45,034 bases of DNA from an uncultured Bacteroidales bacterium (GTDB lineage Bacteria > Bacteroidota > Bacteroidia > Bacteroidales > Bacteroidaceae). The DNA lies in the NCBI GenBank assembly GCA_902776455.1, contig CACYQI010000028.1, positions 1-45,034 of the forward strand, given 5' to 3'. The position numbers were made by a program, and so were the translations under genes. The notes under the pieces were generated by a model. It was not told the origin of the DNA and made no database searches. It worked only from the letters and a program-made list of their open reading frames with translations. Of this stretch, positions 1,683 through 44,613 are shown one piece after another (position 1 is the first letter of the stretch; each line of letters starts with the position of its first letter).

Positions 1683-4600
1683 ATGATTACTTTTTTCAAG
1701 ACACCCCAGCAAAGTATCATCGCAACAGAGAGCAATCACCCGCTTACGGCAGCAGAAGTCGAGAAACTCTGCTGGCTCTATGGCGGAGCAACCCTCGAAG
1801 AGGAGAAGAACCTCACGGGCCAGTTCATCGGTCCTCGCCGCGAGATGATTACCCCTTGGAGCACCAACGCGGTGGAAATCACGCAGAACATGGCCATCGA
1901 GGGCATTACGAGGATAGAGGAATACTTCCCAGCCCCCTCCCCCGACCCCTCCCCCGAGGAGGAGGGGAGCACGGCGTCTGAAAGCCTCCCTCCTCGGGGG
2001 GAGGTTGGAGGGGGGCTTTTTGACCCCATGCTCCAGCGCCTCTATCAGGGCCTCGACCAGGGCATCTTCACCATCAACAAGCAGCCCGACCCCATCATCA
2101 GCATCGAGAACCTGGAGGAATACAACGAGAAGGAAGGTCTCGCCCTGTCGCCCGAAGAGATAGAATACCTGCACAAAGTGGAGGGTCAGCTCGGCAGGAA
2201 GCTCACCGACAGCGAGGTCTTCGGCTTCGCTCAAATCAATAGCGAGCATTGTCGGCACAAGATATTCGGCGGTACCTTTATCATCGATGGCGAAGAGAAA
2301 GAGTCGTCCCTCTTCCAAATGATAAAGAAAACGACCCAAGAGAACCCCCATCACATCATCTCCGCCTATAAAGATAATGTGGCGTTTGCCGAAGGTCCGG
2401 TCGTTGAGCAGTTTGCTCCGAAGGACCACAGCACGAGCGATTGGTTCCAGGTGCGCGACATCGAGAGCGTCATCAGCATCAAAGCCGAGACACACAACTT
2501 CCCGACGACCGTCGAACCCTTCAACGGAGCCTCCACCGGCACAGGCGGCGAGATACGCGACCGCATGGGTGGCGGCACCGGTTCATGGCCCATCGCAGGT
2601 ACTGCTGTGTATATGACGGCCTATCCTAGGCGAAATGAAGAATTAAGAATGAAGAATGAAGAATCTGCTGCCGCCCTCAATCCCGCGCAGGATGGAGCGC
2701 GTGATAAGGACAGAACTACAGCGGAAGCAAATTCTTCACTCTTCACTCTTCACTCTTCACTCGCGCCTTCGATGAAGGCGCGCAAGTGGCTCTACCAGAC
2801 GCCTGAGCAGATTCTCATCAAGGCTTCCAACGGAGCGTCGGACTTCGGAAACAAGTTCGGACAGCCACTCATCTGCGGTTCGGTGCTCACCTTCGAGCAT
2901 CAGGAGAAGTCCATTGACCATTCATCGGCATCTGAAGGCAAAGGCAATAATGGTCAATGTTCAATGTTCAATGGTCAATCACCTATGTACGCTTACGACA
3001 AAGTCATCATGCTGGCTGGCGGCGTAGGCTATGGCACGAAGCGCGATTGCCTGAAGAAAGAACCGCAGAAAGGCAATAAGATTGTGGTCGTTGGAGGTGA
3101 TAACTACCGCATCGGACTTGGCGGCGGCAGCGTCTCCAGCGTGGACACAGGCCGCTACTCGAGTGGCATCGAGCTGAACGCCGTACAGCGCGCCAACCCC
3201 GAGATGCAGAAGCGAGCCAACAATCTGGTAAGGGCTTTGTGCGAAGAGGAAGTGAATCCCGTCGTCAGCATCCATGATCATGGAAGCGCAGGCCACGTCA
3301 ACTGCCTCTCCGAGCTTGTAGAAGATTGCGGCGGCCTCATTGATATGACGAAGCTTCCCATCGGCGACCCGACGCTTTCGGCTAAGGAAATCATCGCCAA
3401 CGAAAGCCAGGAACGCATGGGTCTCCTCATCGACGAGAAGCACATCGAGCACGTCCGCCAGATAGCCGAAAGGGAGCGCGCCCCGCTTTACGTCGTCGGC
3501 GAGACCACAGGCGATGCCCATTTCGCCTTCCAGCAAGCGGATGGCAAGCGCCCGTTCGACTTGGATGTGGCCCAGATGTTTGGCCACTCGCCCAAGACCA
3601 TCATGCGCGACAAGACCGTGGAGCACAAGTACGCCCCCGTCGAATACCAGAAAGACCTAGTACAACTAGTTTCACTAGTCTTACTAGAGTATCTAGAAAG
3701 GGTCCTCAGCCTTGAGGCCGTTGCCTGCAAGGACTGGCTGACGAACAAGGTGGACCGCTCCGTGACGGGCAAGGTGGCACGTCAGCAATGCCAGGGCGAA
3801 CTGCAGTTGCCGCTGAGTGACTGTGGCGTGGTTGCCCTCGACTATCGTGGCGAGAAAGGTATTGCCACGGCTCTTGGCCACGCACCACAAGCCGCTCTTG
3901 CCAATCCGGCTGCAGGAAGTGTCCTTTCTGTTGCAGAATCTCTGACAAATATCCTTTGGGCGCCGCTCGAAGAAGGACTCGACAGCGTCAGCCTCAGCGC
4001 GAACTGGATGTGGCCATGCCGTGCTCAGGAAGGTGAGGATGCACGTCTGTATCAGGCAGTTGAAGCGCTGAGCGACTTCTGTTGCGCTTTGCAAATCAAC
4101 GTCCCGACGGGCAAGGATTCGTTGAGCATGACGCAGAAATATCCCGACGGCACTAAGGTGATTGCTCCCGGAACGGTCATCGTCTCCAGCGGCGGCCAGG
4201 TGAGCGACATCAAGAAGGTCGTTTCGCCGGTCATTCAGAACTGCCCCTCTACATTATATCATATAGACTTCTCGTTCGACGAGCTGCGTCTGGGCGGCTC
4301 CGCCTTTGCCCAAAGCATGGGGAAAGTCGGGAGCGATGTGCCTACGGTACGCGACCCGGAGTACTTCCGCGATGCCTTCAACGCCATTCAGGACCTGATA
4401 AAACGCGGTCTCATCCTCGCCGGACACGACATCTCGGCAGGCGGTCTCGTCACTTGTCTGCTGGAGATGTGCTTCGCGAACACGAAGGGCGGACTCGAAA
4501 TCAACTTGAACAAGATAAAGTGCGACGACCTTGTGAAGGTCCTCTTTGCTGAGAACCCGGGCATCGTGATACAGGTGGCCGACAAGAACCGCACGGAAGT

Positions 4601-5735
4601 CAAGAAGTTGCTCGAGGATGCAGGCGTCGGTTACGTCAACATCGGCCGTCCTTGCAGCGAGCGGCATATCCTCGTCCAAAAGGGCGAGGCACAGTGGCAG
4701 CTTGACATCGACAGCCTGCGCGACGTTTGGTTCCGCACATCTTACCTGCTCGACCAGAAGCAAAGCTTCAACGGAAAGGCCAAGGAACGCTATGAGAATC
4801 TGGGCAAGCAACCGCTCAAGTGGCAGATGCCCAAAGGCTTCACGGGCAAACTCAGCCAGTACGGACTCAACCCCGACCGCTGGAAAAATGGTCAATGGTC
4901 AATGGTCAATGGTCAATCTCCAAAGGCCGCCATCATCCGCGAGAAAGGCACGAATGGCGAGCGCGAAATGGCCTACATGCTCTATCTGGCAGGCTTCGAC
5001 GTGAAGGACGTGATGATGACCGACCTCATATCGGGTAGAGAAACGCTCGACGAGGTGAACTTCATCGTCTTCTGCGGCGGCTTCTCCAACAGCGATGTCC
5101 TCGGCTCGGCAAAGGGTTGGGCAGGCGCTTTCCTCTACAATCCCAAGGCGAAAGAGGCCCTCGACCGCTTCTACGCACGTCCCGACACACTTTCCCTCGG
5201 CGTCTGCAACGGGTGCCAGCTCATGGTGGAACTGGGTCTCATTGACCATTCACCATTGACCATTGACCATTCAGGTAGCGCAAAAGATAATGGTCAATGG
5301 TCAATGGTCAATGGTCAATCAGTAAGGATGTTGCACAACGACAGCCATAAGTTCGAGTCAGGCTTCGTCGGCTTGACCGTTCAGCCCAATAAGAGCGTCC
5401 TGCTCGAAAGCCTGAGCGGGTCGAAGCTCGGCATCTGGGTGGCTCACGGCGAAGGCAAGTTCAGTCTGCCCGGCAAGGAGGAAGACTACAACATCGTGCT
5501 CAAGTACAGCTACGACGGCTATCCTGCCAACCCGAACGGCAGCGACTTCTCGGCCGCAGGCATCGCTTCGGCCGACGGTCGTCACTTGGCTATGATGCCG
5601 CACCTCGAGCGTGCCTTCTTCCCCTGGCAATGTGGATTCTATCCCGCTGAACGCCAACAGGAAGATCAAGTAACGCCTTGGATAGAGGCTTTCGTCAATG
5701 CAAGGGAATGGATAAAACAGCATGCGAGCCAATGA
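1683..5735 (+). CDS. purL: Phosphoribosylformylglycinamidine synthase with six in-frame repeat insertions
   Basis: PurL makes FGAM from FGAR, ATP and glutamine in purine synthesis. All parts of the long single-chain form are present: N-terminal domain, linker (LTDSEVFGFAQINSEHCRHKIF), two AIRS-type ATP-binding halves, and a C-terminal class I glutaminase with nucleophile Cys1175 (GVCNGCQ) and His/Glu in the MPHLERAFFPW motif. At 1350 residues it is longer than relatives, which I recall as about 1230-1300. The excess is explained by six low-complexity segments encoded by repeats: about residues 83-113, 320-361, 410-435, 657-672, 1069-1080 and 1187-1213. The last begins only about 12 residues after the catalytic cysteine. 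No frame is broken and all motifs are intact, so the enzyme is probably active. The gene is preceded by its own promoter. Confidence 0.97.
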   Translation: MITFFKTPQQSIIATESNHPLTAAEVEKLCWLYGGATLEEEKNLTGQFIGPRREMITPWSTNAVEITQNMAIEGITRIEEYFPAPSPDPSPEEEGSTASESLPPRGEVGGGLFDPMLQRLYQGLDQGIFTINKQPDPIISIENLEEYNEKEGLALSPEEIEYLHKVEGQLGRKLTDSEVFGFAQINSEHCRHKIFGGTFIIDGEEKESSLFQMIKKTTQENPHHIISAYKDNVAFAEGPVVEQFAPKDHSTSDWFQVRDIESVISIKAETHNFPTTVEPFNGASTGTGGEIRDRMGGGTGSWPIAGTAVYMTAYPRRNEELRMKNEESAAALNPAQDGARDKDRTTAEANSSLFTLHSSLAPSMKARKWLYQTPEQILIKASNGASDFGNKFGQPLICGSVLTFEHQEKSIDHSSASEGKGNNGQCSMFNGQSPMYAYDKVIMLAGGVGYGTKRDCLKKEPQKGNKIVVVGGDNYRIGLGGGSVSSVDTGRYSSGIELNAVQRANPEMQKRANNLVRALCEEEVNPVVSIHDHGSAGHVNCLSELVEDCGGLIDMTKLPIGDPTLSAKEIIANESQERMGLLIDEKHIEHVRQIAERERAPLYVVGETTGDAHFAFQQADGKRPFDLDVAQMFGHSPKTIMRDKTVEHKYAPVEYQKDLVQLVSLVLLEYLERVLSLEAVACKDWLTNKVDRSVTGKVARQQCQGELQLPLSDCGVVALDYRGEKGIATALGHAPQAALANPAAGSVLSVAESLTNILWAPLEEGLDSVSLSANWMWPCRAQEGEDARLYQAVEALSDFCCALQINVPTGKDSLSMTQKYPDGTKVIAPGTVIVSSGGQVSDIKKVVSPVIQNCPSTLYHIDFSFDELRLGGSAFAQSMGKVGSDVPTVRDPEYFRDAFNAIQDLIKRGLILAGHDISAGGLVTCLLEMCFANTKGGLEINLNKIKCDDLVKVLFAENPGIVIQVADKNRTEVKKLLEDAGVGYVNIGRPCSERHILVQKGEAQWQLDIDSLRDVWFRTSYLLDQKQSFNGKAKERYENLGKQPLKWQMPKGFTGKLSQYGLNPDRWKNGQWSMVNGQSPKAAIIREKGTNGEREMAYMLYLAGFDVKDVMMTDLISGRETLDEVNFIVFCGGFSNSDVLGSAKGWAGAFLYNPKAKEALDRFYARPDTLSLGVCNGCQLMVELGLIDHSPLTIDHSGSAKDNGQWSMVNGQSVRMLHNDSHKFESGFVGLTVQPNKSVLLESLSGSKLGIWVAHGEGKFSLPGKEEDYNIVLKYSYDGYPANPNGSDFSAAGIASADGRHLAMMPHLERAFFPWQCGFYPAERQQEDQVTPWIEAFVNAREWIKQHASQ
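1929..2024. repeat. In-frame GC-rich inverted repeat in purL (site 1)
   Basis: Left arm AGCCCCCTCCCCCGACCCCT and right arm ending GGAGGTTGGAGGGGGGCT are inverted around a short loop. Each arm also holds an inner palindrome of the form CCTCCCCCGAGGAGG. In the purL frame it encodes APSPDPSPEEEG...PPRGEVGGGL between EEYFP and FDPMLQRLYQG. Confidence 0.85.
2634..2763. repeat. In-frame heptad-array element in purL (site 2)
   Basis: Left arm GAATTAAGAATGAAGAATGA (7-nt period) and right arm of four CTTCACT units (2730-2762) are imperfectly inverted around a loop of about 68 nt. It encodes roughly NEELRMKNEESAA...SSLFTLHSSL between AYPR and the conserved ARKWLYQTPEQILIKASNG. Confidence 0.85.
2911..2985. 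repeat. In-frame TGGTCAA heptad element in purL (site 3)
   Basis: A short left arm CCATTGACCATTCA and a right arm AATGGTCAATGTTCAATG with two further units flank a loop of about 25 nt. It encodes SIDHSSASEG...NGQCSMFNGQS. The codon that would be TGA in the consensus array is TCA at 2922-2924. Confidence 0.85.
3655..3703. repeat. In-frame CTAGT array in purL (site 4)
   Basis: CTAG recurs five times with an exact 9-nt period (CTAGTACAA, CTAGTTTCA, CTAGTCTTA, CTAGAGTAT, CTAGAAAGG), encoding LVQLVSLVLLEYLER. The phase keeps every CTAG in the CTA frame, avoiding the TAG stop. A related array lies between trpF and trpA (7816-7872). Confidence 0.75.
4886..4918. repeat. In-frame TGGTCAA heptad array in purL (site 5)
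   Basis: Four units of TGGTCAA encode [11 protein letters not shown]. There is a single arm only, in the orientation that is stop-free in all three frames. Confidence 0.9.
5240..5320. repeat. In-frame TGGTCAA inverted heptad element in purL (site 6)
   Basis: Left arm of four CATTGAC units (5240-5273) and right arm of four TGGTCAA units (5289-5320) surround a 17-nt loop. It encodes IDHSPLTIDHSGSAKD plus [11 protein letters not shown], immediately after the glutaminase nucleophile helix. In-frame TGA codons expected from the left-arm consensus read TCA at 5250-5252 and 5271-5273. Confidence 0.9.
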
Positions 5736-7815: not shown

Positions 7816-7872
7816 ATTGTCTAGTAAAACTAGTAGAACTAGTTAGAACTAGTAGAAACTAGTGGAACTAGC
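7816..7872. repeat. CTAGT array between trpF and trpA
   Basis: Six CTAGT-type units at 9-10-nt spacing (CTAGTAAAA, CTAGTAGAA, CTAGTTAGAA and variants). It is the same family as the in-frame array in purL at 3655-3703. Confidence 0.8.
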
Positions 7873-10650: not shown

Positions 10651-10714
10651 CAGTTATTCATTTATCATTTACTATTTATTACCCTCTTCTCGGAGAAGGG
10701 AGCAGAGCGTCGTC

Positions 10715-10809
10715 TCACGCTCCACGTTGCATCGGCTTACGCTCCACGGAGCAAAGGCTCACGCTCCACGGAGCATCGGCTTACGCTCCACGTTGTGTAA
10801 AACTGCCCC
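10715..10809. repeat. Array of four 22-nt units ending GTAAAACTGCCCC (copy 1)
   Basis: Four direct 22-nt units of the type TYACGCTCCACGGAGCAWMGG, or with CTCCACGTTGC, end with TGTAAAACTGCCCC. Copies with the same unit number and end are at 25720-25813 and 39053-39146. Confidence 0.85.
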
Positions 10810-19730: not shown

Positions 19731-21440
19731 ATGAAAAGGAGTCTGTTTGTCCTTCTGGCTGTCTTTGCTCTCTCCGCCCAAAGGGCTGAGAGGACATTCA
19801 AAGTGAAGTGCAAGTACCTGAACCTGCCCATTTCGCAAGGAGAAGAACGCCGCCGGCTGACTTTCCGAGCGAAGGGTGTGGACGACCTCAGCGTTGTGGC
19901 GCGGCTCTCGGAACGCCCTGAGTACTGGGTCTTTAAGGATTTGACGGCTTACAAGGACAAGACGTTGACCATCGCCTTTGACGGCCCGGAGGAAGCCCTC
20001 TCGCTTGTCTATCAGGCAGACACTATCCGGGATGCCTCCACTTTCTACAAAGAGACGTATCGTCCGCAGTTTCACTTCACTTCCCGGCGCGGCTGGCTGA
20101 ACGACCCTAACGGCTGCATTTGGCACGACGGGCTGTATCATCTTTACTATCAGCACAATCCTTTCGAACGCGAATGGGAGAACATGACGTGGGGCCACGC
20201 TACGAGTCCCGACCTCCTGCATTGGACGGAACACGCGCCTGTGCTCCATCCCGACTCGCTCGGCACGATGTTCAGCGGCTCGGCCGTCTTCGATGCGGAC
20301 AACACGTCGGGCTTCGGCACGAAGAAGAACCCGCCGCTCGTCTTTGCCTATACAGCCGACCGTAGCGACAAGGAAGTACAATGCATTGCCTACAGCTTGG
20401 ATGGCGGCATGACGCTCCACAAGTACGAGGGCAATCCCGTTATCGACTCGCACGACAAATGGCAGTCGCACGACACGAGAGACCCAAGGCTGTTTAAATG
20501 GACAGCCTCTCCTAAATCCTCCCCTAAAGGGAAGGACTTAGAGTCACCCCTTCCCTTTAGGGGAGGGGAAGGGGGTGAGGCCTGGGTTCTCGTCCTTAAT
20601 GAACGCAACGGACACAGCATCTACACGTCCGACAACCTTCGCGACTGGACCTATCAGAGCCATGTCAGCGGCTTCTGGGAGTGCCCCGACCTCTTCCCTC
20701 TGGCAGTAGATGGGAACCCGGAGGACGTGCGGTGGGTGATGCTGGGGGCAAGTAATACATACATGATAGGCCGCTTCGACGGCAAGACGTTCACGCCGGA
20801 AAGCGGCAAGCACCGTTTCTCGACGGGCGCCATCTATGCCGCCCAGACCTTCAACAACGTGCCCGACGGCCGCCGCATACAGATAGGATGGGCCAACATC
20901 GACCATCCCGGAATGCCTTTCCGCGGGCAGATGCTGCTGCCGACGGAGTTGACGTTGCGCACTACGAAGGACGGGATCCGCCTCGTGAGCATGCCTATTA
21001 GCGAGGTTGCCTCTTTGCTGAAGCCCCTTTATGCGAGCGACAAGACCTTGAGCGCCCAGGAGGCTAATGCCGCCTTGCAGAGAGTGAACTCTTCACTCGC
21101 GGTGCATCTTCGCGCCACGCTCAACCTCACCTACGCCACCAGCGCTGGCTTGAAGCTCGACGGACAAACGCTTGTCGATTACGACCTCAACCGCAACACG
21201 CTCAACGGCCAGTTCTATTCGCCGCAGGACCCCACGAGCCTCGCTTTGACGATGGACGTCTATATAGACCGCACCTCAGTAGAAGTCTTCATCGACGACG
21301 GGCTGTACAGCTATTCCCTGCCAAGAGAAGTGAAGCGCGAAGACCGTCGTCTCCACGCTTCGCTCCCGTTTCTTGAGTTCTGGGGCAACGCCATCAGCGT
21401 CACGGGCTTGCGACTCGATGCCGTCGAAAGCTGTTGGTAA
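19731..21440 (+). CDS. Secreted GH32 fructanase (levanase/inulinase type) with in-frame repeat
   Basis: This glycoside hydrolase cleaves beta-fructosides. A signal peptide (MKRSLFVLLAVFALSAQ) precedes a short beta-rich N-terminal region. The five-bladed propeller follows, with nucleophile Asp125 in WLNDPNG, the RDPR motif at 250-253, the acid/base Glu317 in WECPD and a C-terminal beta-sandwich (about 430-560, with DRTSVEVFIDDG). All three catalytic residues are present. Residues about 258-284 (ASPKSSPKGK...RGGEGGE) are encoded by a palindromic repeat and sit in the turn between RDPRLFKW and AWVLVLN, which is normally short. No SusC/SusD genes are nearby. The specificity (levan, inulin or sucrose) cannot be read from sequence. 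Confidence 0.95.
   Translation: MKRSLFVLLAVFALSAQRAERTFKVKCKYLNLPISQGEERRRLTFRAKGVDDLSVVARLSERPEYWVFKDLTAYKDKTLTIAFDGPEEALSLVYQADTIRDASTFYKETYRPQFHFTSRRGWLNDPNGCIWHDGLYHLYYQHNPFEREWENMTWGHATSPDLLHWTEHAPVLHPDSLGTMFSGSAVFDADNTSGFGTKKNPPLVFAYTADRSDKEVQCIAYSLDGGMTLHKYEGNPVIDSHDKWQSHDTRDPRLFKWTASPKSSPKGKDLESPLPFRGGEGGEAWVLVLNERNGHSIYTSDNLRDWTYQSHVSGFWECPDLFPLAVDGNPEDVRWVMLGASNTYMIGRFDGKTFTPESGKHRFSTGAIYAAQTFNNVPDGRRIQIGWANIDHPGMPFRGQMLLPTELTLRTTKDGIRLVSMPISEVASLLKPLYASDKTLSAQEANAALQRVNSSLAVHLRATLNLTYATSAGLKLDGQTLVDYDLNRNTLNGQFYSPQDPTSLALTMDVYIDRTSVEVFIDDGLYSYSLPREVKREDRRLHASLPFLEFWGNAISVTGLRLDAVESCW
20503..20582. repeat. In-frame GC-rich inverted repeat in the GH32 gene
   Basis: Left arm ending CCCCTAAAGGGAAGG and right arm beginning CCTTCCCTTTAGGGG are inverted around ACTTAGAGTCACC. 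The element encodes about 27 residues between the RDP motif and the next strand. Confidence 0.88.
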
Positions 21441-22302: not shown

Positions 22303-22368
22303 ATTGCTCCTTCATGTAGGAGCAAACGCTCTTACATGTAGGAGCAATTGCTCCTACATGAAGGAGCA
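22303..22368. repeat. Three tandem 22-nt palindromes (copy 1)
   Basis: Three contiguous 22-nt units of the type ATTGCTCCTWCATGTAGGAG plus CA, each nearly self-complementary around CATG. The second copy at 32325-32390 also has exactly three units. Confidence 0.9.
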
Positions 22369-22558
22369 ACGAATCCTCCCAGCCATGTTGCTCCTTGCGG
22401 CAAGTGGAACGACCCGCTCCGCCGCTTTCCGCAAGGCCGGCATCCGCGTTGCATCCTCTCGCCCACCACTTTGCCTGAACCGTTTCCTCGCAGACAGCAA
22501 TCCAACGAAATATGTGCAGAAAAATCACATTCCTCTTTCTTTATTCCCAAAATCTTCG

Positions 22559-25719: not shown

Positions 25720-25813
25720 TCACACTCCACGGAGCATCGGCTCACGCTCCACGTTGCATCGGCCTACGCTCCACGGAGCATCAGCCCACGCTCCACGTTG
25801 CGTAAAACGCCCC
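25720..25813. repeat. Array of four 22-nt units ending GTAAAACGCCCC (copy 2)
   Basis: Four direct 22-nt units alternate between the CTCCACGGAGC and CTCCACGTTGC types, then end with CGTAAAACGCCCC. The architecture is the same as at 10715-10809. Confidence 0.88.
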
Positions 25814-31280: not shown

Positions 31281-32312
31281 ATGAAGGGTCTCGTCATAAG
31301 GAATACCGGCAGCTGGTACACCGTACAGGCGGACGACGGCCGGCTCTACGAATGCAAGGTGAAAGGCAACTTCCGCCTCAAAGGCATCCGTAGCACCAGC
31401 CCCGTGGCCGTAGGAGATGTGGTCAGCATCATACCCCAACCGATGTCCAACGGCCAGCCTCCCTCGCAAAGCCCCGACGCCCCAATGGTCAATAGTCAAT
31501 GGTCAATGGTCAATAGTCAATGGTCAATGGTCAATGGTCAATGGCCGATTGCGTTGATTGACGACATCGACGACCGCCGCAACTACATCATCCGCCGCGC
31601 TTCGAACCTCTCGAAGCAGAGCCACATCATTGCCGCCAACGTCGATCTGGCCGCGCTGATTGTCACCATTGCCCACCCGGAGACGAGCACCACCTTCATC
31701 GACCGCTTCCTGGCCAGCGCTGAGGCTTACCGAGTGCCCGTGCTGCTGGTCTTCAACAAAGAAGACCTCTACGACTCCGACGAGCAGGAGCGGCTCAATT
31801 CCCTCCTCTCGCTCTATCGGGGCATAGGCTATACCTGCCTCTCCTGCTCTGCCGAGAAGGGGACGGGCATCGCCGAGCTGCGGGCCGAACTTCAAGGCCG
31901 GACGACCTTGCTCAGCGGCAACAGCGGGGTGGGAAAGAGCACGTTGCTCAACCTCCTCGTGCCCGATGCCGATGCCAAGACCGCGGCACTCAGTCCCGTT
32001 CACGACATGGGCATGCACACCACCACCTTCTCGCAGATGTTCTTCCTGCCGGAAGGAGGCTCGCTCATCGACACGCCGGGCATCAAGGGCTTCGGCACTT
32101 TCGACATGGAGCGCGAGGAGGTGTCGCACTACTTCCGCGAGATATTCCGCATCTCCGACGGCTGTCGCTTCGGCAACTGCACGCATACCCACGAACCGGG
32201 CTGTGCTGTGCTGCAGGCCGTAGCCGAGGGGAGCATCGCCGAGAGCCGCTATGCGAGCTACCTCTCGATGCTCGACGACAAGGACGAAGGCAAGTACCGT
32301 GCTGCCTTCTGA
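31281..32312 (+). CDS. rsgA: Ribosome small-subunit-dependent GTPase A with in-frame heptad repeat
   Basis: RsgA (YjeQ) assists late 30S assembly. The 343-residue protein has an N-terminal OB fold and a circularly permuted GTPase with G4 NKED (159-162), then G1 GNSGVGKST (213-221) and G3 DTPG (264-267). The zinc knuckle has Cys295, Cys300, His302 and Cys308. Residues about 68-88 ([20 protein letters not shown]) are encoded by nine TGGTCAA heptads placed in the OB-fold loop between VGDVVSI and [18 protein letters not shown]. The preceding stretch [13 protein letters not shown] (about 56-67) also looks low-complexity. The frame is kept and all motifs are intact. Confidence 0.96.
31483..31543. 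repeat. In-frame TGGTCAA heptad array in rsgA
   Basis: Nine units, mostly TGGTCAA with two TAGTCAA variants. The TAG triplets of the variants are out of frame, so the product reads (MVNSQWS)n without stops. Confidence 0.92.
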
Positions 32313-32324
32313 CAGCAAGGGTCC

Positions 32325-32390
32325 ATTGCTCCTACATGTAAGAGCAATTGCTCCTTCATGTAGGAGCAATCACTCCTTCATGTAGGAGCA
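32325..32390. repeat. Three tandem 22-nt palindromes (copy 2)
   Basis: Three contiguous 22-nt units of the type ATTGCTCCTTCATGTAGGAG plus CA, 12 nt after the rsgA stop. They match 22303-22368 in unit length and number. Confidence 0.9.
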
Positions 32391-32429
32391 ATCAACACAG
32401 CAGTAGGCATCAAACCATACAACGAGTGA

Positions 32430-39052: not shown

Positions 39053-39146
39053 TCACGCTCCGTGGAGCATCGCCTCACACTCCACGGAGAAAAGGCCCAC
39101 GCTCCACGGAGCAAAGGCCGATGCTCCACGGAGCGTAAAACCGCCC
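39053..39146. repeat. Array of four 22-nt units ending GTAAAACCGCCC (copy 3)
   Basis: Four direct 22-nt units of the CTCCACGGAGC type (the first CTCCGTGGAGC) and the terminal GCGTAAAACCGCCC. It agrees with copies 1 and 2 in unit number and end. Confidence 0.88.
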
Positions 39147-41098: not shown

Positions 41099-41767
41099 TT
41101 ATCGGTTGCTTCTTTCGACATGGAGGTGCCCGACCATCTTCAGGAACAGTTCGTGGATGCGGGTGTCGTCGGTCAGTTCGGGATGGAAGGCTGTGACGAG
41201 CATGTTTCCTTGGCGGGCTGCGACGGCTTTTCCTTCGACGGTCGCAAGGATTTCGACATCAGGGCCTGCCTCCTCGATGTAAGGAGCACGGATGAAGGTC
41301 ATGGGGAATTTGCCGATGCCTCGGAAGTTCTCCTCTGTGTTGAAGCTTCCCAACTGACGGCCGTAGGCATTTCGACGAGCCGTGATGTCCATCACACCGA
41401 GGTGGTTGCGGTCGAGCATGATGAGGCCCGCACAGGTTCCGAGCACAGGAAGTCCGTCGAGAATGGCCTGCCGGAGCGGCTCGAACAAGCCTTCGTCCTT
41501 CATAATGCGCATCATGGCCGTGCTCTCGCCGCCAGGGATAGCCAGACCAGCCCTCTCGACCCCCTCCAAACCTCCCCGAGGGGAGGCTTCCTGCCGCGAA
41601 AAACTCTCCCCCTCGGGGGAGATGGAGAGGGGTCGGGAGGGAGGCTTTTGGAAGGTTGAATAGAAGTCGTCCAGATTTCGGATAAGCGTAGTCTCTGTCC
41701 CAAGCTGCCTGAACATCTGTTCGTGCTCAGCAAAAGCTCCTTGCAGAGCAAGTATAGCAATCTTCAT
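41099..41767 (-). CDS. pdxT: Pyridoxal 5'-phosphate synthase glutaminase subunit with in-frame repeat
   Basis: PdxT hydrolyses glutamine and passes ammonia to PdxS for direct synthesis of vitamin B6. The 222-residue protein has [18 protein letters not shown], the PGGESTAM oxyanion-site loop (78-85), nucleophile Cys112 (GTCAGLIM), [18 protein letters not shown] and the His/Glu pair in AFHPELTDD. Typical members have about 190-200 residues. The excess is residues about 42-73 ([20 protein letters not shown]...), encoded by a palindromic repeat just before the PGGES loop. The catalytic set is complete. It lies directly after pdxS on the same strand. Confidence 0.95.
41553..41645. repeat. In-frame GC-rich palindromic element in pdxT
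   Basis: Arms CTCGACCCCCTCCAAACCTC and GAGATGGAGAGGGGTCG are inverted, each with an inner palindrome (CCTCCCCGAGGGGAGG and CTCCCCCTCGGGGGAG). Bases 41553-41635 are identical to 41783-41865. Confidence 0.93.
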
Positions 41768-41782
41768 ATAACTAACTTTTAA

Positions 41783-41873
41783 CTCTCGACCCCCTCCAAA
41801 CCTCCCCGAGGGGAGGCTTCCTGCCGCGAAAAACTCTCCCCCTCGGGGGAGATGGAGAGGGGTCGAGGGGGCC
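41783..41873. repeat. Intergenic copy of the pdxT element
   Basis: It lies between pdxT and pdxS and repeats 83 bp of the element inside pdxT without a mismatch, at a distance of 230 bp. Confidence 0.93.
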
Positions 41874-44067: not shown

Positions 44068-44613
44068 ATGAACACAAAACATTTACTTTTGAGTCTGCTT
44101 GCCCTACTGGGAAGCACAATACTAAGTGCTTCTGTTCCTATTGGCGACCTTTTTTACAACTTAGAAGCTTCTACTCGCACAGCAACGGTGACTTATAACA
44201 ATAACAGTTCCAGCAAATATACTGGTAGTATCACCATACCTGCAACTGTAACAAGCGGTGGAACGACCTATAACGTAACATCTGTTGGTTATTGGGCTTT
44301 CGGAAATTGCAGCGGCCTGACCTCCATCACCATCCCCAACAGCGTGACCAGCATCGGCAATTCTGCTTTCTATGGCTGCCGCGGCCTAACCTCCATCACC
44401 ATCCCAAACAGCGTGACCAGCATCGGCAATTTTGCTTTCAGTGGTTGCAGCGGCCTGACCTCCATCACCATCCCCAACAGCGTGACAAGCATCAACATTT
44501 ATGCTTTCCAAGGTTGCAGCGGCCTAACCTCCATCACCATTCCAAACAGCGTGACAAGCATCGGTATTGGTGCCTTCACTGGTTTGTATTTAGAGACCTC
44601 TAAACAACTATAA
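44068..44613 (+). CDS. Short BspA-like leucine-rich repeat surface protein
   Basis: The 181-residue protein has a signal peptide ([22 protein letters not shown]) and a short beta region ([32 protein letters not shown]). Four LRR_5-type units of 23 residues ([22 protein letters not shown] and variants) follow, at 44311-44586. BspA-like proteins are surface adhesins that normally have many more repeats and end in a T9SS sorting domain or further modules. Here the frame stops after [14 protein letters not shown] with no sorting domain, so it is probably truncated or a remnant. The 69-bp units are nearly identical at the DNA level, which favours recombination. Confidence 0.8.
44311..44586. repeat. 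Four tandem 69-bp LRR-coding units
   Basis: Units at 44311-44379, 44380-44448, 44449-44517 and 44518-44586 share long identical stretches (for example CCTCCATCACCAT and AACAGCGTGAC), with changes concentrated in the last third. Confidence 0.9.

Follow-up and report, generated by a model that had tools for sequence, protein, structure and literature searches.

The stretch of DNA analysed here, referred to as the window, comprises 45,034 nucleotides and is contig 28 of a draft genome of 3.39 Mb (87% complete, 94 contigs) from a gut bacterium with affinity to Prevotella. It harbours purL (Table 1), whose reading frame runs without a stop codon over the whole of 1683–5735 (1350 codons) and whose product matches, with residues 12–1345, the FGAM synthase equivalog NF003672 at a score above its cut-off. 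PurL was aligned with 109 orthologue rows, consisting of 29 loci of the same genus and order and 80 named records (the best 80 of 590); including the window, the set has 110 rows, 106 of them distinct. Residues of the window PurL found in fewer than 30% of the 109 orthologue rows were taken as inserted, which yielded seven pieces plus the lone residue 1326; two of the pieces make up one insert, leaving six sites. The six in-frame segments of the original prediction are thus indeed present. They belong to a GC-rich palindrome, two 7-bp repeats (AATGAAG and AATGGTC) and a (CTAGN5) array. These had been considered four unrelated families; their number held up, but AATGAAG and AATGGTC follow one and the same 7-bp plan.

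Table 1. purL, its six insert sites and further copies of the same repeats in the window.
Feature	Position	Strand	Evidence or setting
purL, FGAM synthase, 1350 aa, host of six inserts	1683..5735	+	open frame, NCBIfam match
Site 1: GC-rich palindrome, double hairpin with outer stem	~1931..2022	+	alignment, copy survey, folding
Site 2: AATGAAG array, 66-nt loop, CTTCACT array (inverted pair)	~2632..2765	+	alignment, inverted-partner scan, folding
Site 3: short CATTGACCATT arm (CATTGAC), loop, AATGGTC array	~2910..2988	+	alignment, folding
Site 4: (CTAGNNNNN)x5, period 9	~3656..3700	+	alignment
Site 5: solo AATGGTC array, x4.4	4887..4919	+	alignment
Site 6: CATTGAC array, 17-nt loop, AATGGTC array, near glutaminase cysteine	5239..5321	+	alignment, AlphaFold, folding
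CTAG 9-bp array, relative of site 4	7821..7871		gene start/intergenic
AATGGTC-class array	18193..18233		gene edge/intergenic
GC-rich palindrome copy in predicted gene, 66-bp difference versus a relative	20494..20583	+	copy survey, relative comparison
AATGGTC array inside rsgA, between RsgA_N and GTPase domain	31483..31544	+	gene calls, domain scan
GC-rich palindrome copy in predicted gene	41554..41640	-	copy survey
GC-rich palindrome copy, intergenic	41784..41870	-	copy survey

Judged by its coordinates, site 6 begins at residue 1186, 11 residues past the glutaminase Cys1175 and hence close to the roughly 12 residues originally proposed. In an AlphaFold model of residues 1000–1350 (mean pLDDT 82.5), the nucleophile is followed by a helix and then by this insert, which is modelled as coil (block pLDDT 46–50), and site 5 appears as coil as well (block pLDDT 65). 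The model of residues 1–720 is poor (mean pLDDT 57.3), with site 1 in a low-scoring stretch flanked by better ones. Solved PurL structures include 9n9w and 1t3t; the alignment to 9n9w omits residues 312–371 (site 2) and has a gap at site 3. Folding as single-stranded DNA, evaluated against dinucleotide shuffles, revealed strong structures at two sites, 6 (z −10.3) and 2 (z −5.3), and moderate ones at another two, 3 (z −2.2) and 1 (z −1.9), and neither site 4 (z −1.6) nor the structureless site 5 (z +0.5) stood out against the shuffles. With the insert sites removed, PurL gave dN/dS values of 0.045–0.082 relative to five relatives, dS exceeding 1 for two of these.

The proposal that each of these repeats has relatives between genes of the window applies to AATGGTC, the CTAG array and the GC palindrome, but not to the exact AATGAAG array, for which the intergenic DNA of the window offers only AATTAAG-type cousins; positions 2638–2664 of site 2 recur as an identical 27-bp stretch in a predicted gene at L132:1844–1870. 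Both CTAG arrays, at 3656–3700 and 7821–7871, present this tetranucleotide every 9 bp. The window further contains 22-bp tandem arrays (10705–10792, 22306–22369, 25721–25797, 32325–32392 and 39053–39134), some with palindromic units such as GCTCCTACATGTAGGAGC, as well as a 69-bp direct repeat of 3.7 copies at 44307–44564, which resembles leucine-rich-repeat coding sequence. A search of the window against Rfam gave no hit at or above a family's gathering score.

To place these elements in a genomic context, tandem arrays were counted by period (1–40) in 445 kb, i.e. the window plus 400 kb of stretches from the same genome. Period 7 dominated with 59 arrays, followed by period 22 with 43 and period 9 with 11; every period from 1 to 21 other than 7 gave 0–11 arrays, and after mononucleotide shuffling of these 445 kb the same threshold left none of any period from 1 to 40. 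In 80 other Bacteroidales records, 719 kb of sequence surrounding purL contained 34 arrays of period 7 and 4 of period 22. In our own sample, 37 of the 43 22-bp arrays are intergenic, and the 59 heptamer arrays divide into 27 within predicted genes, 8 at gene edges and 24 between genes, the latter distribution still amounting to a depletion in genes because 79% of the sample is predicted coding sequence. The 27 genic arrays sit in 16 of 281 predicted genes. Their products were scanned against Pfam or NCBIfam, not every one against both, which identified 12 of the 16: PurL, RsgA, PurM (with a match below the cut-off of its model), an ArgC-type semialdehyde dehydrogenase, ProA, an M24 peptidase, a GH43 protein, a RecD/PIF1-like helicase, AlaRS, PssA, LpxB and a DUF3822 protein. 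The host in L129 gave a weak match, and those at L125:8377, L132:1 and L126:11372 gave none in the single library tried. Within the M24 peptidase gene, at L125:15396–15606, three AATGGTC arrays 66 bp apart and an AATTATG array are separated by a repeated GAGCCGGGCGAAGC spacer, resulting in a higher-order tandem within one gene.

Altogether, the 59 arrays represent 19 unit classes, with AATGGTC contributing 16 arrays. Of the 59, 18 are accompanied by an inverted partner no more than 200 bp away, sites 2 and 6 being examples, and the remainder are solo at this criterion. The GC palindrome of site 1 has 27 copies in the 445 kb, 13 of them genic, 11 intergenic and 3 at gene edges. Under a stricter length rule, applied to stretches of the own genome and of relatives, 23 copies (16 genic, 7 intergenic) span 80–102 bp, their termini being extrapolated from the queries. 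When the palindrome copies were aligned and folded together, the ends misaligned and the consensus structure was consequently poor.

Comparison with relatives reveals lineage-specific insertions, in support of the original prediction: in a DNA alignment of purL that took in eight near relatives, most of the inserts at the six sites are absent from these relatives, and the insert boundaries point the same way. Site 4 exceeds the near relatives by only about 20 nt and is common to the window and its nearest relative, G013 (L012), in which the CTAGs of the array and their spacing are kept and the spacer bases differ. G013 also carries an altered AATGGTC array at site 5, and of the palindrome at site 1 it has the left portion only. 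At site 6, G005 (L013) has an inverted pair of another heptamer, AATTATG, and G018 (L010) has an inverted pair of the AAAGTTG class at site 2. Outside purL, a genic insert of 51 bp in the DUF3822 gene is missing in four relatives. At a permissive threshold, 16 of the 106 distinct PurL genes (window included) carry at least one heptamer array, adding up to 25 species-site cases in sites 2–6, four of which are the window's own, and 2 elsewhere in the gene. Each of these sites was found with several unit classes, up to seven at one site, and the units in the other PurL genes usually differ from those of the window. A few nevertheless recur: the window shares AAGAGTG at site 2 with L044, which in turn shares AACTCTC at site 4 with L106. 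Species free of arrays have their insertions of five or more residues mostly at the same PurL loops, and also at 762, 948 and 998–1002; these loops therefore tolerate changes in length, and it is there that the arrays gather. Neither of the two circumstances named as speaking against the original prediction holds. The segments are not conserved in distant Bacteroidales, and arrays at matching PurL positions in further assemblies, including that of the isolate Xylanibacter rodentium PROD (L078), make an assembly error unlikely.

Selection on the reading frame, another element of the original prediction, was assessed by comparing own stretches with sequences of relatives and pairing collinear matches, which gave 28 insertion rows. 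In the 11 rows (ten distinct places) located in predicted genes, all length differences are divisible by three; the other 17 split 6/6/5 over the remainders. If lengths were random, ten multiples of three out of ten would arise with a chance of about 2 in 100,000, keeping in mind that the gene class here presupposes an open frame. A target-site duplication was not apparent by eye in the 28 rows, whose flanks have diverged, nor did we see a clean empty site among them, leaving room for local growth or template switching. Stop codons were analysed in 36 genic arrays, 27 of our own sample and 9 from relatives. Whatever its frame, a heptamer repeated in tandem is read as one and the same set of seven codons, so that a stop-bearing unit will stop in any frame if the array is long enough. 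In 30 of the 36, the unit is stop-free in its coding orientation, and among 24 arrays with a unit open in one orientation only, 20 adopt that orientation (p 0.0015), a statistic that is partly circular, since our own gene caller defines genes as open frames and a stop-containing array would not count as genic. Seven genic arrays would stop in frame if the repeat were perfect, and each deviates at that very codon; in the reverse arms of PurL site 6 and PurM, TCA and TTA replace the TGA of the unit. Independent support for stop avoidance comes from PurL and PurM being proteins of known identity. Selection on frame is thus visible, as is selection against stops, the latter with the caveat that it partly inherits the circularity of the gene calls.

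The heptamer arrays show signs of a modular build. Their lengths cluster at 26–34 bp (61 arrays), with a dip of 5 at 23–25 bp and 34 arrays of 17–22 bp that look chance-like. Copies of 31–33 bp at distant loci carry the same odd unit. Fifty-two arrays of 26–36 bp, taken from our own sample, from relatives and from the 80 public loci, contain a single variant unit. In 29 of these it is the third, with different heptamers involved and against a null of 0.29 from a detection simulation; this excess is suggestive only, because the arrays share ancestry. The flank motifs GGGCGTA/GCGTAGC occur beside AATGGTC, AATTATG and AAGAATT (5 arrays each), and the flanks of AAGGGGC, AGGGGGC, AACCACT and AACCCCT have AGGATTG and ATTCTCT in common. 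Of the 25 occurrences of the core motif GGGCG[TCA]AGC in our own sample, 8 are no more than 40 bp away from an array, but only 1 of 11 in relatives. None of these counts are independent, as clustered arrays share flanks and arrays are related by descent. The small number of unit classes, the shared odd units and the shared flank motifs favour dispersal of preformed modules, with a later change of unit, over local growth. The shared period, the length of about 31 bp and some of the flanking motifs point to one process behind the heptamer families, but the GC palindrome and the CTAG array are elements of another kind. The original interpretation is therefore supported in part: several of the repeat families do behave alike, whereas one general mechanism making or spreading all such arrays is a hypothesis. 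Arrays of AATGGTC were also noticed on three contigs of a viral collection (L184:11741–11772, L185:8776–8813 and L186:6155–6200); with 3 viral stretches matching a 28-base AATGGTC pattern exactly, phages are not an evident main carrier of this unit.

We consider it most plausible, with a probability of roughly 0.7, that PurL was struck by several populations of short dispersed repeats filtered by selection, the inserts being passengers rather than functional parts. At least six hits would have reached the gene, in this species or in recent ancestors, from populations comprising a GC-rich double hairpin of about 90 bp, heptamer arrays of about 31 bp, solo or as inverted pairs, and the 9-bp CTAG array. 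Such repeats would insert into DNA regardless of frame, and the surviving genic copies would be those that measure a multiple of three, lie in length-tolerant loops and read free of stops, either by virtue of orientation or by deviation of the offending codon from the unit. The inserts are most likely translated as floppy loops. They would be neutral or slightly harmful, and the heptamer modules of about 31 bp were probably copied in preformed state from place to place instead of being grown on the spot. The observation itself is real and genome-wide and is well explained by insertion plus selection: sequence comparison demonstrated the insertion, the frame pattern, the repeat populations shared in and between genes, and the recurrence of other units in the same loops.

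Among other explanations, local replication slippage would let heptamers grow in place, seven bases fitting the polymerase footprint, without any movement between loci. The excess confined to period 7 among short periods, in our own sample and in the 80 other Bacteroidales loci, would be in line with this notion, as would the over-representation of heptamers described, together with the polymerase-footprint proposal, in sections of PMC4692102. We nevertheless regard slippage as unlikely, since it is at odds with few unit classes being common to many loci, with the length peak at 26–34 bp and the dip below it, with the same odd unit in arrays at distant loci, with inverted partners for 18 of the 59 arrays and with inserts that also contain non-repeat sequence; the GC palindrome would be left unexplained. 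Movement in trans of non-autonomous elements of the MITE or REPIN type by a genome-encoded transposase appears slightly less improbable, though doubtful. The palindromic or paired-inverted architecture and the dispersed copies would fit, as would the patchy abundance of AATGGTC: a 26-base pattern of this unit has 24 exact matches in the own genome (overlapping ones counted apart), 13 in G005 and 1 in G013, and is present in 12 of 61 genus genomes and in 2 of 295 of the class, own included, with zero matches for the reversed-pattern control. For PF01797 (Y1), two matches in the own genome (G000) score above the cut-off of 23 (25.9 and 24.1 bits) and one below, and G013 has a clear match (67.7 bits). 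However, four of the six genomes, all incomplete, gave no PF01797 match (G005, G008, G018 and G004), including the array-bearing G005, and a target-site duplication was not apparent by eye, as mentioned above. Despite the matches in G000 and G013, a Y1/RAYT transposase was therefore rejected as a necessary driver and retained solely as part of this broader transposase explanation.

That the inserts are adaptive parts of PurL or its mRNA, serving as regulatory hairpins or linkers, is quite improbable in our estimation: strong hairpins at sites 2 and 6 and the repeated use of the same loops could be read in this way, but sister species lack the inserts or have other units at the same place, many unrelated genes are affected, and loop length varies without arrays too. 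An assembly or binning artefact might come to mind for an 87% complete draft in 94 contigs, yet is scarcely credible for a frame that stays intact through six inserts, with sites 4 and 5 common to the window and G013 and arrays at the same sites in other assemblies, one of them of an isolate.

A more far-reaching and quite tentative idea is that the heptamer arrays constitute one undescribed class of mobile elements of Prevotellaceae. Its module would be about 31–32 bp long, with four and a half 7-bp units and a marked third one, occurring singly or as inverted pairs beside a short core, and would spread into genes and intergenic DNA by a templated or array-copying activity. If true, the identity of the heptamer would be swapped as a whole while core and site persist.

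Known repeat systems share some of these features. REPINs, which are associated with RAYT transposases, are dispersed as solo modules or as inverted pairs with a short spacer in between. The arrays described here resemble them in having inverted modules round a short spacer, solo or paired, but differ in that the modules are tandem heptamers and in that no Y1 match was found in four of six incomplete genomes. BrickBuilt, a MITE of Porphyromonas gingivalis, likewise combines tandem units and inverted repeats in Bacteroidales, the units residing within an inverted-repeat element; according to the excerpts of PMC4596501 it is, unlike our arrays, always intergenic. Heptameric SSR or STRR are known from cyanobacteria, Xanthomonas (GGGAATC) and Beggiatoaceae (TAACTGA), with few copies per array and several units in some genomes (portions of PMC4679880 and PMC4692102). 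The former source, in the portions at hand, describes TAACTGA heptamers of Beggiatoaceae, cyanobacteria and five Bacteroidetes as mostly intergenic and includes a TAACTGA pair in purC of Flexibacter litoralis; heptameric repeats of this kind are described as mainly located between genes, the genic cases being mostly at gene ends or in hypothetical proteins. The over-representation of period 7 (59 versus 0–11 arrays for other periods from 1 to 21) and the few copies per array are thus shared, whereas 27 of the 59 arrays here are genic, often in core enzymes, and 18 have an inverted partner. Our results bear on the cause of heptamer over-representation in bacteria.

The comparison with the RPE elements of Rickettsia, drawn in the original prediction, is apt in kind. 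As described in parts of PMC2229807, RPEs are short palindromes, stem-loops of 105–146 bp, found between genes and in frame in conserved protein genes, with an experimentally studied guanylate kinase product; reference titles in the same source point to coding palindromes of Wolbachia and Methanocaldococcus jannaschii. The GC palindrome likewise occurs between genes and in frame in genes (11 and 13 of 27 copies, plus 3 at edges). The likeness is one of description; in contrast to RPEs, we are dealing with double hairpins of 80–102 bp, heptamer arrays of about 31 bp and heptamer-armed hairpins in Bacteroidota. A literature search for heptamer tandem repeats in Prevotella returned no report, and among the matches listed for heptamers, palindromes and in-frame repeats in open-licence literature none in Bacteroidota was like the present case; the combination of families and the switching of units at the same site thus seem new. 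For annotation, such loops should be viewed with caution, since they can be recent insertions rather than conserved domains. The close relatives form a natural presence/absence series, in which the origin of coding repeats, their spread and their loss can be traced. Coding palindromes have been known mainly from Rickettsiales and an archaeon, and the gut lineage studied here adds several families at once in core enzymes.
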